Virus record (IMG/VR): IMGVR_UViG_3300007521_000118
Span: 1-23,897 of that record
Strand: one strand, 5' to 3'
Source: a virus
DNA length: 23,897 nucleotides
The notes beneath the pieces were generated by a model. The model was not told the origin of the DNA, ran no database searches, and saw only the letters and a list, made by a program, of their open reading frames with translations. Shown here piece after piece: positions 2,694 to 14,071 of this stretch (its first letter is position 1; each line of letters starts with the position of its first letter). The translations under genes were made by a program, and so were the position numbers.

Positions 2694-2879
2694 TTAGATC
2701 TTTTCTTCATTTGAGATATCCAACTCTACGCCTATCTCACGTAAAAAGTCAATTTTTTTCTCTGTCAAACACATGCGATTACCTCTACCGCATTTGAAAG
2801 TCGATAAAAACTTCTCAGCAGCTTCATTAGCTGGATAAAAACGCCATCCATCTTTATGGTTCTTAAATTTCAGTATCAT
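2694..2879 (-). CDS. Hypothetical protein sharing its start sequence with the upstream paralogue pair
   Basis: This 61-residue protein contains DGWRFYPANEAAEKFLSTFK, a Cys/Arg-rich loop, and a final segment with LTEKKIDFLREIGVELDI. Its first six residues MILKFK, and 24 bases around its start codon, are identical to those of the 3110-3373 gene, but the rest of the protein is unrelated. Its start overlaps the end of the 2863-3126 gene by 17 bases. It is probably the ancestral downstream neighbour of the duplicated gene pair. The function is not recognised. Confidence 0.7.
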   Translation of the reverse strand: MILKFKNHKDGWRFYPANEAAEKFLSTFKCGRGNRMCLTEKKIDFLREIGVELDISNEEKI

Positions 2880-3126
2880 ATTTCCCTTCCTTGATTGATT
2901 TTATCAAATCGTTATATTTTTTAAGTCCTAGTTTCATATCATTTACTTCTTCTGCAAATATTTCTATCAACTCTCTATAGTTAATAAGTTTTATACCTTT
3001 TTCCTTAATTTTAGTTTCGACTAAATTAATAAAATCATTATATTTCTCAATCTTCATCAATATATAATCAACGTCATCTTCGATTAATTCTATCAATTTT
3101 TTATTGTTATCAAATTTCGTCATCAT
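2863..3126 (-). CDS. Two-module helical protein, paralogue 2
   Basis: This 87-residue protein has the same length as the preceding paralogue and is roughly half identical to it. It has two related helical modules. The first contains LIELIEDDVDYILMKIEKYN and the second LIEIFAEEVNDMKLGLKKYN. Each follows a leucine, acidic, methionine and KY pattern. I place the start at 3126 rather than at an upstream ATG at 3168, because this start falls at exactly the position equivalent to the paralogue's start and lies in the repeated 24-bp junction. The gene overlaps both neighbours by 17 bases. It has no signal peptide, membrane segment or known catalytic motif. A role as a small helical binding protein is inferred from composition only. 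Confidence 0.75.
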   Translation of the reverse strand: MMTKFDNNKKLIELIEDDVDYILMKIEKYNDFINLVETKIKEKGIKLINYRELIEIFAEEVNDMKLGLKKYNDLIKSIKEGKYDTEI

Positions 3127-3373
3127 ATGTTTCTTCCTTGATTGATTTGATCCACTCATTATATTCATTAACTGTCAGTTTTAAATCATGTATTTCATCT
3201 GAAAATAATTTTATAAAATTTTTATCGTTAATAATTTTTATACTTTTTTCTTTTATTTTAATTTCGATTAAACTAATAAAATCTTTATATTTCCTAATTC
3301 TTATTCTCATATAATTTACGTCATCTTTGATGAATTTTAACAGGTGTTCATTTTTCTTAAATTTCAGTATCAT
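3110..3373 (-). CDS. Two-module helical protein, paralogue 1
   Basis: This 87-residue charged helical protein has module 1 around residues 7-43 (LLKFIKDDVNYMRIRIRKYK) and module 2 around 49-85 (FIKLFSDEIHDLKLTVNEYN). An AAGGAG ribosome-binding site lies about 11 bases upstream of the ATG, within the end of the preceding gene. The same module is visible in the C-terminal third of the two 149-residue proteins upstream, so the operon seems to have grown by copying this unit. The function is not known to me. Confidence 0.75.
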   Translation of the reverse strand: MILKFKKNEHLLKFIKDDVNYMRIRIRKYKDFISLIEIKIKEKSIKIINDKNFIKLFSDEIHDLKLTVNEYNEWIKSIKEETYDDEI

Positions 3374-3375
3374 AT

Positions 3376-3825
3376 TTACATTATCTCCTTGATCATATCT
3401 CTGCTGATTGACATGAAGACAAATTCATGTTTTTCAAGTTTTATGCTCATACAATTTAATTCATCTTCGATTAATTTCATCAAATCTCTATTTTTTGAAT
3501 AATCTGTTCTTTTTTCAAGTGATTCTGTCAAAACAAAAAGTTCTTCAATTTGTTTTTGCATTGCATGCGTGCCGTTTCCTATAAAATTTATTAATTCTTT
3601 ATGACGGCAAATTGTTTCTATCATATCGCTTACTTGGCTTCGGCTTAATTCCTGATAATCTTCTGAGTCCTGAATTGCATCGAATTTTTCCCTCATTGTA
3701 TTTAGTTTATTATACATGTATTCCCTAGCTTCATCGAATTCACATAGTTTTGAGGATATAGCTTCTCTTTGGATATTTATTAATTCTAACGCATTTCTTA
3801 ACTTATTATTTGTTGCTACTATCAT
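3376..3825 (-). CDS. 149-residue helical protein, paralogue 2
   Basis: The product is a fully helical-looking, charged protein, clearly paralogous to the upstream 149-residue protein. Shared blocks include the N-terminal ALELIN-x-QR, the REYMY-x-K motif, and a conserved centre with GTHAMQK followed by LFVLTESLEKRTD. The C-terminal third (LMKLIEDELNCMSIKLEKHE) matches the module of the 87-residue pair. The central part (ELINFIGNGTHAMQKQIEEL) may be a more distant copy. An AGGGG ribosome-binding site followed by T6 precedes the ATG, as in its paralogue. The stop is two bases before the next start. The family is unknown to me. It could be a coiled-coil bundle that binds a host or phage partner. 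Confidence 0.75.
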   Translation of the reverse strand: MIVATNNKLRNALELINIQREAISSKLCEFDEAREYMYNKLNTMREKFDAIQDSEDYQELSRSQVSDMIETICRHKELINFIGNGTHAMQKQIEELFVLTESLEKRTDYSKNRDLMKLIEDELNCMSIKLEKHEFVFMSISRDMIKEIM

Positions 3826-3841
3826 AAAAAACCCCTATTTT

Positions 3842-4291
3842 TTATTTAATTTCCTTGAAAAGATCTTCTTTGATTTGCACGAATACATTTTCCAAATATT
3901 TAAGTCTTTTGCTCATTAAATTTATTTCAGCTTCAATTTTTCCTATCAAATCTTCATTGTTTACACAATCTGTTCTTTCTACAAGTGATTCTGTCAAAAC
4001 AAAAAGTACTTCAATTTCTTTTTGCATATCATGTGTGCCGCATCCAACAAAATTTCTTAATTCTGAATAACGGCGTATTGTTGTCATCAAATTGGATGCC
4101 TCATCATCGGTAGATGGATCATATTCTTCTACTTCATGAATCGCATTGAATTTTTCCCACATTGTATCTATTTTGCTATACATGTATTCTCTAACATCAC
4201 GGTAATCACGTATTTTTAAGGATATATCTTTTCTTTGTGCATTTATTAACTCTAGCGCATCTTTTAAATTTCTCTTTGGTGCTGTTGTCAT
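3842..4291 (-). CDS. 149-residue helical protein, paralogue 1 (first gene of the operon)
   Basis: This is the first gene of the minus-strand small-protein operon. The protein aligns over its whole length with the next gene: ALELINAQR near the N-terminus, REYMYSKIDTMWEKFNAI, then GTHDMQKEIEVLFVLTESLV in the centre, and a final helical module NEDLIGKIEAEINLMSKRLK. Identity by eye is roughly 40 to 50 percent. No signal peptide or membrane helix is visible, so it is probably cytoplasmic. An AGGGG element followed by T5 precedes the ATG. A promoter and palindrome are located just upstream. The function is unrecognised. Confidence 0.75.
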   Translation of the reverse strand: MTTAPKRNLKDALELINAQRKDISLKIRDYRDVREYMYSKIDTMWEKFNAIHEVEEYDPSTDDEASNLMTTIRRYSELRNFVGCGTHDMQKEIEVLFVLTESLVERTDCVNNEDLIGKIEAEINLMSKRLKYLENVFVQIKEDLFKEIK

Positions 4292-4401: not shown

Positions 4402-4974
4402 TTATATTAGCTGCTGAACTGTATCCACAGGGCATTTTAAATATTCATAAACTGTGGTTCTTCCGATCTGAAAATGATTGGATATCTCTTCAATCTTCAT
4501 TTTTTCATGTTTCATCTTCTTAAGTAGGGCAATATCTGCGGGTGTTAAGTACTTAGACTTGCCTTTATAGACTCCTTTTTGCCTCGCCTTAAGTATTCCC
4601 TCCCTTTGACGTTCTAATATAATCTCGCGTTCAAACTCTGCAAATGCTCCCATCATGCTAAGTAAAAGATTAGACATCATATTCTTCTCACCATTGAACG
4701 TAAGTGACTCAGTTATAAAGTGAACCGTCACTTGTTTTGCCACTAATTCCATTACCATTCTTCTTAAATCGTCTAGATTCCTAGCAAATCTGTCTAAGCT
4801 ATGAACATATAAAGAATCACCTTCTCTTAAAAAATTTAGCATATCTTGAAGGACAGGTCTTTTTGTATCTTTGCCCGAAGCAAACTCAATAAAAATCCTC
4901 TCCAGCTCCATTCCATTCAATTGTCTTTCTGGGTTTTGTTCGTGTGAACTAACTCTTTTGTACCCAACTCTCAT
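4402..4974 (-). CDS. Serine site-specific recombinase (resolvase/invertase family)
   Basis: This 190-residue enzyme belongs to the small serine recombinases. The N-terminal catalytic domain starts MRVGYKRVSS, where S9 is the expected nucleophile. It has the family segments LYVHSLDRFARNLDDL, with conserved arginines, and AFAEFEREIILERQREG on the long E helix. A short C-terminal helix-turn-helix follows with KIEEISNHFQIGRTTVYEYL. The ATG at 4974 is chosen because GGAGG lies directly upstream. The in-frame TTG at 4986 is less likely. Such enzymes cut all four strands at a short crossover site and either resolve or invert DNA. Three direct repeats upstream may be its binding sites. It is not the large-serine-integrase type, so integration is not implied. 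Confidence 0.93.
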   Translation of the reverse strand: MRVGYKRVSSHEQNPERQLNGMELERIFIEFASGKDTKRPVLQDMLNFLREGDSLYVHSLDRFARNLDDLRRMVMELVAKQVTVHFITESLTFNGEKNMMSNLLLSMMGAFAEFEREIILERQREGILKARQKGVYKGKSKYLTPADIALLKKMKHEKMKIEEISNHFQIGRTTVYEYLKCPVDTVQQLI

Positions 4975-5004
4975 ATTTACCTCCAAAGTAGGGATAGATC
5001 TTAA

Positions 5005-12512: not shown

Positions 12513-12620
12513 ATGTCGATTACTACTACAGGCAATTTAGGACCAATGATATTGCAGTCGCTTGCGCCCGCAATGCTTTACGTCCCTACACCTACAATGA
12601 ATTATATTACAGTCTGCGAT
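12513..12620 (+). CDS. Major capsid protein, exon 1 (residues 1-36)
   Basis: Exon 1 starts at ATG 12513, preceded by GGGG and four T, the same leader style as the 3825 and 4291 genes. It encodes MSITTTGNLGPMILQSLAPA and then MLYVPTPTMNYITVCD. Translation of unspliced RNA would stop at TAA 12621-12623, the first codon of the intron. The splice site after U12620 is set by pairing of CUGCGAU with GUCGCAG at 12642-12648. The exon ends in phase 0 after Asp36. Confidence 0.9.
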
Positions 12621-12840
12621 TAACAAAAGATTATACATCTAGTCGCAGTAAAATTCTCTCTGATTGACTCGGAAGCCCGATGGGGTGACGAGGCGGAAGC
12701 GAAAGCACCGTGAACGACTGAGCGAGAGAACTCCGAAAGGGGATGCAACAGTCTGAACATGACGGATAACAATAAGGTCATGAGGGAGATTCGAAGAGGT
12801 TTCCCCGCCATATAAATATGGTCACCAAAGTAACAGAATG
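12621..12840 (+). ncRNA. Group I intron 1 in the capsid gene (220 nt, no ORF)
   Basis: A complete small group I core can be drawn. P1 pairs exon 12614-12620 with 12642-12648, 7 bp with a U-G wobble at the splice site. P10 pairs 12637-12640 with exon bases 12842-12845. P3 is TTCTCTC (12654-12660) with GAGAGAA (12724-12730). P4 is CTCG (12668-12671) with CGAG (12689-12692), and P5 is CCC (12676-12678) with GGG (12683-12685). P6 (12694-12710) is capped by GAAA. P7 is GACTG (12716-12720) with CAGTC (12749-12753). P8 is CTCC with GGGG around a GAAA loop (12731-12742). P9 is CATGAC (12758-12763) with GTCATG (12777-12782). The last base is G12840. Removal joins Asp36 to Lys37 in frame. It encodes no homing endonuclease. 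Confidence 0.95.
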
Positions 12841-13002
12841 AAGATATCCATGCCAGCCAATGGCGGAACCACTTGTCGCTTTATGCGCCCAAGAGCGCTA
12901 CAGCCACCCACTGTTCAATTGGGAAATTCTGGTATTGATCCACCAGCACAAGTGCCTCAGAGAGATATCATTGATGCGTCAATGTCTTTTTTTGGAACAG
13001 GT
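12841..13002 (+). CDS. Major capsid protein, exon 2 (residues 37-90)
   Basis: The 54 codons begin KISMPANGGTTCRFMRPRAL, which matches the conserved N-terminal arm and G-G-T-T-x-R-F motif of N4-gp56-type coat proteins, and end with ASMSFFGTG. A longer open frame to 13035 is misleading. The last 10 codons before that stop belong to intron 2, and homologous coat proteins go directly from the FFG-T region to the next exon. The 5' splice site is after U13002. Confidence 0.9.
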
Positions 13003-13348
13003 AAAGAAGTTTACTCTGAAAAATTAGCTGCATAATTAAATTGTGGCTTTAAATAAGAGTGGCAGCCTGTTGTGTGAATCTCAAAATGGTTAGAGATCAC
13101 ATAAAACTTGGCTATATGCTGGAAACCCCTAAAGCTATCAGTACCAAAGTGTGAAAATCTGATAGATGTAACAATGGGCAATCAGCAGGGAAGGCTCGAA
13201 AGAGAACCCTCAACGACTACACGCCAGGCACTCTGTAACCGCAGAAGTGAAGATATAGTCTGAACAATGGTGAGAGCCATTGAGAGAGGAATGACAAGAC
13301 TCTCCGCCATGTAAATTTACTTTACATGGTCATCAAAGTAACAGCTAG
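13003..13348 (+). ncRNA. Group I intron 2 in the capsid gene (346 nt, no ORF)
   Basis: P1 pairs exon AACAGGU (12996-13002) with GCCUGUU (13065-13071), 7 bp with a U-G wobble at the splice site. P10 pairs GCA 13062-13064 with UGC 13349-13351. P6 has AGGG (13187-13190) with CCCT (13207-13210) and an inner CTC-GAAA-GAG hairpin. P7 is GACTA (13215-13219) with TAGTC (13256-13260), inside the signature AAGATATAGTCT. P8 is CACT-CTG with CAG-A-AGTG (13229-13249). P9 is CAATGG with CCATTG (13265-13282), and a 9-bp hairpin (13307-13315 with 13321-13329) precedes the 3' end. The last base is G13348. The sequence around 13174-13187 matches the classic group I P/Q region. The 62-base P1 loop is long and contains an in-frame stop. 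Confidence 0.95.
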
Positions 13349-14071
13349 TGCATCATTAATGAACAGGTAATCTTGCAAGATCAAGAGGGTGTTTTAGCTT
13401 GGGTTTCAGAGCGTTTAGCAGTAGCAATGCGTCAAGCAGAGGATTTAATCCTCCGTGATTTTGTTGTATCAGCTGCCTCCCCAATAAATTGTGGTGGAGG
13501 TTCAAACGGTTTTAACCCGACAAATATGGGTTTGACAGATTTTAGCTTAGTAGCTACTACACTCGATAGTAATAACGCCTATAAGTTTATGACTGGTATT
13601 GAAGGCATGGATAGATTCGGTACTGGCCCAGTTAGATCAGCATATTTTATGCTATCTTCAACTGAACTACAGTCAGATTTTGATGCTTTAGGTAGTAATG
13701 GTTCGATTAGTTTCATTTCACAGTGGAATTATCCTACTAATGCCTCTGCATTGCCATCTGAATATGGTTCTGTAGCTAATATCAGAATTCTAACAAGTTC
13801 TGAGGCTCCAGTAGCTAGAAACGCTGTTACTAATAGTGTAGGTACTACAAATGACCTTTACTATAATACAGTGCTTGGTAAGCAGGCTATTACGCATATT
13901 AATCAGGACGGCTATAGCATGAACCTGATCTATCGTGATCCTTATTACTCTGGTATGCTAGCGCAGAATGCTACGTTAGCCGTTAAGTTTGCGCAAGCAC
14001 AAGCGATCACTCAAGATACGGCTATCCGAAATCTTATGTGTACACGCTCATCAAACTTATGGAGTGTTTAA
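13349..14071 (+). CDS. Major capsid protein, exon 3 (residues 91-330), N4-gp56 family
   Basis: This exon holds most of the coat protein. It starts CIINEQVILQDQEGVLAWVS and continues with RLAVAMRQAEDLILRDFVV. Both segments match the N4-gp56 family, in which an N-E/T-D-x-V segment follows the FFG-T region of exon 2. Spliced residues are 1-36, 37-90 and 91-330, a normal length for this family. The protein forms the icosahedral shell with a HK97-type fold. Both junctions keep phase 0. A frame that starts at TTG 13373 is only the part after a false start. Upstream in this frame a TAG at 13346-13348 ends exactly at the splice site. The next gene starts two bases after the stop. Confidence 0.93.
   Translation, partial: CIINEQVILQDQEGVLAWVSERLAVAMRQAEDLILRDFVVSAASPINCGGGSNGFNPTNMGLTDFSLVATTLDSNNAYKFMTGIEGMDRFGTGPVRSAYFMLSSTELQSDFDALGSNGSISFISQWNYPTNASALPSEYGSVANIRILTSSEAPVARNAVTNSVGTTNDLYYNTVLGKQAITHINQDGYSMNLIYRDPYYSGMLAQNATLAVKFAQAQAITQDTAIRNLMCTRSSNLWSV

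Follow-up and report, generated by a model that had tools for sequence, protein, structure and literature searches.

Group I introns in phage virion genes and in the capsid gene of the window

Group I introns are already known in phage virion genes, namely in the capsid genes of LittleE and Tuc2009 and in the tail gene of BAKA, and splicing was shown by reverse transcription PCR for the LittleE capsid and BAKA tail introns (PMC3706429). T4 also has group I introns in the protein genes td, nrdB and nrdD, but these genes are metabolic. Here we describe the capsid gene of one uncultivated virus, IMG/VR record IMGVR_UViG_3300007521_000118, the 23,897 bases of which constitute the stretch analysed (the window). 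Like LittleE, BAKA and Tuc2009, it has group I introns in a major capsid or tail gene, with U before the 5′ splice site and G as the last intron base. It differs in that the known cases have one intron per gene, belong to unrelated capsid families and hosts, and have no degradation signal (degron) or mini-intron described (PMC3706429). Of the two group I introns in the window, the early one is ordinary and the late one has a putative degron tag.

The capsid gene lies in a plus-strand run of terminase, portal, capsid and tail-type genes. Its open reading frame (ORF) starts with ATG at 12513 and meets a TAA stop at 12621. When the window sequence is joined computationally at U12620/G12840 and U13002/G13348, the exons measure 108, 162 and 723 nucleotides (nt), all joints are in frame and the product has 330 residues; it was recognized as an N4-gp56 capsid protein by TIGR04387 with 73 bits (cutoff 60) and an E-value of 2.5e-20. 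Spliced alignment to a profile of uninterrupted relatives returned exactly these junctions; it was scored with a bonus for the U and G ends, and without the bonus the same junctions were obtained within one base. The intron-free ("empty") sites are known because about 60 of the 80 closest relatives encode residues 1-327 unbroken. The preliminary description, made from this sequence, had proposed an N4-gp56 coat gene split by two group I introns, with these same boundaries and the frame kept at both joints, and the comparison with the family and its uninterrupted members bears it out to the base. Thus, the division of the gene and the exactness of the boundaries are solid as read from the sequence, and from them we infer splicing itself at the window junctions.

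Searching with exon 3 by tblastn revealed 192 relatives in IMG/VR and none among 50,697 cultivated-phage records. The sequences come from metagenome assemblies only, a point in favour of a reading in which the interrupted genes are inactive or products of misassembly, the window gene being simply broken. Nevertheless, strong purifying selection was found on each of the three exons (nonsynonymous pN 0.00-0.10 versus synonymous pS 0.65-0.89, against intronless relatives), the junctions are frame-exact, group I cores are present and the interruptions recur in many samples, so that a broken gene is hardly credible.

Both window introns possess a P1 of 7 base pairs (bp) with a U·G pair at the 5′ splice site and a terminal G (G12840 and G13348), as had been noticed before, and they share the 3′ end ...AAAGUAACAGNNNG. 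In intron 2, GCA at 13062-13064 is able to pair with UGC of the exon, giving a P10 of 3 bp. The scan with Rfam RF00028 that had been suggested for these introns succeeded only in part: intron 2 scored 85.1 bits (E 1.1e-20), exceeding the gathering cutoff of 50, while intron 1 gave no match even at E = 10. The gathering score is missed by most introns of relatives as well. Intron 1 was recovered by R1, a covariance model based on ten relatives' introns with the window excluded; it matches 12633-12840 with 181.6 bits (E 5e-36) and also finds the RF00028 member, intron 2, with 43 bits (E 8e-8). Intron 1 is counted as group I on this core match and on its P1 and terminal G.

Table 1. Positions of the described features in the window
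Feature	Position	Strand	Details
Exon 1, capsid gene	12513..12620	+	36 codons, MSITTTGNLGP...YITVCD; joining, spliced alignment, uninterrupted relatives
Intron 1, group I	12621..12840	+	220 nt, no ORF; R1 covariance model, P1
P1 guide strand, intron 1	12642..12648	+	GUCGCAG pairs with exon CUGCGAU (12614-12620), U·G at splice site
Exon 2, capsid gene	12841..13002	+	54 codons; joining, spliced alignment
Intron 2, group I	13003..13348	+	346 nt; RF00028 13024-13282, R1 13084-13348
Read-through extension KEVYSEKLAA and stop	13003..13035	+	in intron 2, within its enlarged P1 loop; putative ssrA-like degron
P1 guide strand, intron 2	13065..13071	+	GCCUGUU pairs with exon AACAGGU
Exon 3, capsid gene	13349..14071	+	240 codons and stop; joining, tblastn relatives, spliced alignment
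Serine recombinase/DNA invertase gene	4402-4986	-	PHROG 125, E 4e-57; upstream of terminase genes

An Ala-Ala-stop ending in the unspliced frame

The tags of ssrA (transfer-messenger RNA, tmRNA), which are recognised by ClpXP, consist of a short peptide followed by LAA, or also LVA, at the C-terminus. When exon 2 is read without splicing into intron 2, ten codons, KEVYSEKLAA and a stop, are added on a 90-residue capsid fragment, the end of which carries the C-terminal LAA of ssrA-type degrons. Unlike the ssrA tag, which is added by tmRNA, this one is encoded in cis within the intron and reached only by unspliced mRNA. The feature goes beyond the preliminary description, and among relatives it is recurrent and position-dependent. 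For the comparison, introns were classed by structure only: late introns have their site at or beyond nt 180 (about codon 60), and shielded introns are longer introns directly preceded by a mini-intron (see below). Ala-Ala-stop was found in 17 of 18 late unshielded introns, 0 of 10 early introns and 1 of 29 shielded longer introns. The other frames of the same introns gave 0 of 167, and Ala-Ala precedes 0.18% of all stops in the studied loci.

Within the stretch examined, 14 different codon combinations encode the Ala-Ala-stop triplets, all three stop codons occur, and Leu stands before the two Ala in 21 of 31. This variety of codons and stops together with the preference for Leu speaks for selection at the level of the peptide, not of the RNA. 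Homologous introns are inserted at codon phases 0 and 2, and a variable length of the 5′ segment keeps LAA in the exon frame. A DNA pattern search without a fixed exon frame gave 116 stretches; in 114 of 118 matches, an upstream ORF of 36 codons or more runs on into the tag, and an alternative frame of that length was open in only 2. The six matches that were sampled belong to diverse N4-gp56 capsid sequences; five exceed the TIGR04387 cutoff of 60 bits, and the sixth reaches 51.7 bits. Altogether, more than 100 such tagged introns occur across N4-gp56 capsid genes.

The site of intron 1 is at codon 36, and an in-frame stop directly after exon 1 leaves no tag there. Beyond this immediate stop the exon frame continues as ...SLIDSEARWGDEAEAKAP and a second stop, near the tagged readings ...GQAQAA and ...AQAKAA that late introns of the same type give in L188 and L189, respectively. 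This reading is possibly a decayed tag.

The Ala-Ala-stop could also belong to plain group I introns, as an RNA structural motif, by shared ancestry of one intron family or by chance. Most tagged core introns do form one family with the tag beside the same conserved stretch (GACTTGGA...). In addition, the unspliced readings of the mycobacteriophage exons end in LSDDLAAAAA (BAKA tail) and WNSVATAAA (LittleE capsid), where the codons for Ala share bases with the guide and with a possible stem; being from one intron family, these endings are only suggestive of a tag. Yet the tag of the capsid introns appears at structurally unrelated places, namely the P5 region of core introns, the P1 loop of intron 2 and the start of the L068 intron, and in mini-introns either internally or spanning the 3′ splice site. 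Moreover, its codons and stops vary, its frame is kept across insertion phases, and the early and the shielded members of that intron family lack it. An origin without function at the protein level is therefore considered unlikely.

The favoured explanation is a tag that acts on the protein. Removal of the two presumably self-splicing introns from the mRNA would restore the 330-residue coat protein. If intron 2 is retained, the ribosome would read ten codons into it, and the 90-residue fragment would end in ...YSEKLAA. This ending mimics the tmRNA tag, and host proteases such as ClpXP may thus remove the fragment before it poisons capsid assembly. The resemblance to ssrA tags thus suggests a ClpXP-type degradation signal. 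An intron located upstream of about codon 50-60, as intron 1 is, would leave only a short peptide, for which a tag would be needless. Late introns in a highly expressed capsid gene would leave large fragments if unspliced, and the intron itself would supply the tag.

Mini-introns in related capsid genes

In relatives of the window virus, though not in the window itself, insertions of 32-79 nt were found at coding nt 264, 275, 312 and 342, and their exact removal restores the capsid protein. These mini-introns have U before them and G as the last base, and a guide strand for P1 (6-9 bp with the 5′ exon) abuts a strand for P10 (4-8 bp with the 3′ exon). At 32-79 nt they are too short for a catalytic core (P3-P8) of their own. 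Patterns that included the P1 strand led to some of the nt-264 cases, and no pattern covered the other sites. The cases at L027, L031, L036, L037, L046, L050, L064, L077, L111, L113, L124 and L186-L189 came from protein searches.

Such short insertions might instead be left unspliced and crossed by the ribosome, by bypassing or frameshifting. Their size recalls the gap of T4 gene 60, and many of the lengths are 2 mod 3. However, lengths of 0, 1 and 2 mod 3 are all present, which rules out a common frameshift. The P10 strand covaries with the exon (ACUGGC/GCCAGU, ACAGG/CCUGU, GUAGC/GCUAC and GUCGCU/AGCGAU), the P1 pairing also changes together with the exons, and one copy is 953 nt long with an endonuclease ORF. 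On the lengths and on the joint change of P1 and P10, ribosomal crossing was rejected as very improbable. The long copy (L186:4813-5765) has a 300-codon LAGLIDADG-like endonuclease ORF upstream of a guide located 25 nt from the 3′ end, with a P1 of 8 bp and a P10 of 6 bp, and R1 found no group I core in the 953 nt. It looks like a mini-intron carrying an endonuclease gene.

The mini-introns also carry the tag. The unspliced frame ends in AA in 26 of 30 and in A in all of them. In the 17 nt-264 mini-introns without an internal stop, codon 92 is always ATA, which yields TAA after LAA across the splice site. Among uninterrupted genes, 4 of 60 have ATA at this position, and among mini-introns with an internal stop, 0 of 7. 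The ATA count is partly ascertained, as one search pattern required ATA at codon 92. A longer intron lies 24-168 nt downstream of 29 of the 30 mini-introns, and the 30th meets the contig end. The longer introns behind mini-introns are without a tag of their own, with one exception (L187). Where the ribozyme-bearing intron of a relative is tagless, the tag is carried by the core-less mini-intron 24-168 nt upstream. We propose that the mini-intron would supply the substrate part of a group I intron, with P1, P10 and terminal G, and would use the catalytic core of its neighbour, by which it is probably excised.

Group I ribozymes have been engineered that work in trans on the splice sites of a second RNA and can cut segments out of it (PMC6155759). 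The likeness to the proposed excision is that a group I core works on the sites of another segment; the difference, apart from the engineering, is that the guide resides in the ribozyme, while mini-introns carry their own guide. The group III introns of Euglena chloroplasts are tiny introns without catalytic domains that are thought to need a core in trans. They are like mini-introns in size and missing core, but they are group II-derived and unrelated.

Several observations weigh against the proposed tag and its division between neighbouring introns. The Fisher p of 2e-12 for late unshielded introns versus the rest overstates the evidence, as do the other p values, since related introns are not independent data points. 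One late intron (L003) is without the tag and ends in LLAI. The tag is not strictly LAA, as the nt-275 mini-intron ends in CAAA and four others in VA. The T4 introns td, nrdB and nrdD read through to VFLG, VSFA and YELT, with no Ala-Ala tag, which means that the tag is not general to phage introns. A pairing between mini-intron tail and cognate core that could serve for docking was sought, and no excess over non-cognate pairs was found. Taken together, the introns, their junctions, the group I cores, the tag and its dependence on position are evident at the level of sequence. The whole account, comprising two introns, a degron tag on the unspliced product and mini-introns removed via a neighbour's core, is considered likely. 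The two-part system, in which core-less mini-introns with guide and degron would be excised by the neighbouring ribozyme under a quality-control rule for late introns, is put forward with moderate confidence.

Distribution in the clade and significance

The preliminary description held two introns in the coat gene of one phage to be very rare. This does not stand, as 17 of the 80 closest relatives, a set without enrichment, are interrupted, with up to five introns per gene, and group I introns were already known in the capsid genes of LittleE and Tuc2009 (PMC3706429). The clade set consists of 97 distinct capsid genes and was enriched by the mini-intron pattern searches; 34 of these genes are interrupted, and about 60 are not. 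Capsid genes with several introns are common in the clade of the window phage, the maximum being five in L175, and about 20 sites are distributed along the gene.

The R1 model matches the long introns of the interrupted loci that were checked by coordinates. In 60 loci taken as uninterrupted, it gave one strong match, an early intron at codon 10 (L002), and one marginal match (L038, E 0.06). Intron presence is scattered on the capsid protein tree about as shuffled labels are, the deep branches being weakly supported, and this scatter is consistent with mobility. LAGLIDADG-type endonuclease genes were found in some introns, one in L031 just under the Pfam cutoff and that of L186 by inspection. 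Two relatives have group I introns in the portal gene (L084:2557-2773 and L168 7894-8118, the latter on the minus strand), both early and without an Ala-Ala tag. The uninterrupted capsid gene of L040 bears, near 3967, the exon signature of mini-intron alleles (GGTACTGGCTGCATAAT), for which precise intron loss or an uninvaded allele are possible explanations. A capsid-alignment search of genome_contigs gave five genes, four of them interrupted and with the same tag pattern. Host assignment through these contigs was rejected, as the five metagenome-assembled contigs lie in unrelated bins and are probably mis-binned phage. Elsewhere in the window, the minus strand of 2863-4291 has four small similar ORFs (e.g., 3376-3825 and 3842-4291), apparently tandem paralogues.

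No precedent for intron-encoded degrons, the tag rule or core-less group I introns was found in the open literature searched, which leaves most subscription journals outside, so that this absence is no proof. Many capsid genes of these phages are misread by gene callers. If the account is true, selfish ribozymes have evolved a safety device at the protein level, a degradation tag encoded in cis for intron-retained products, and the tag would explain the persistence of introns in one of the most highly expressed genes of the phage. The mini-introns of the relatives would represent non-autonomous group I introns that occur naturally, and a possible model for how self-splicing introns become dependent on a core supplied elsewhere.
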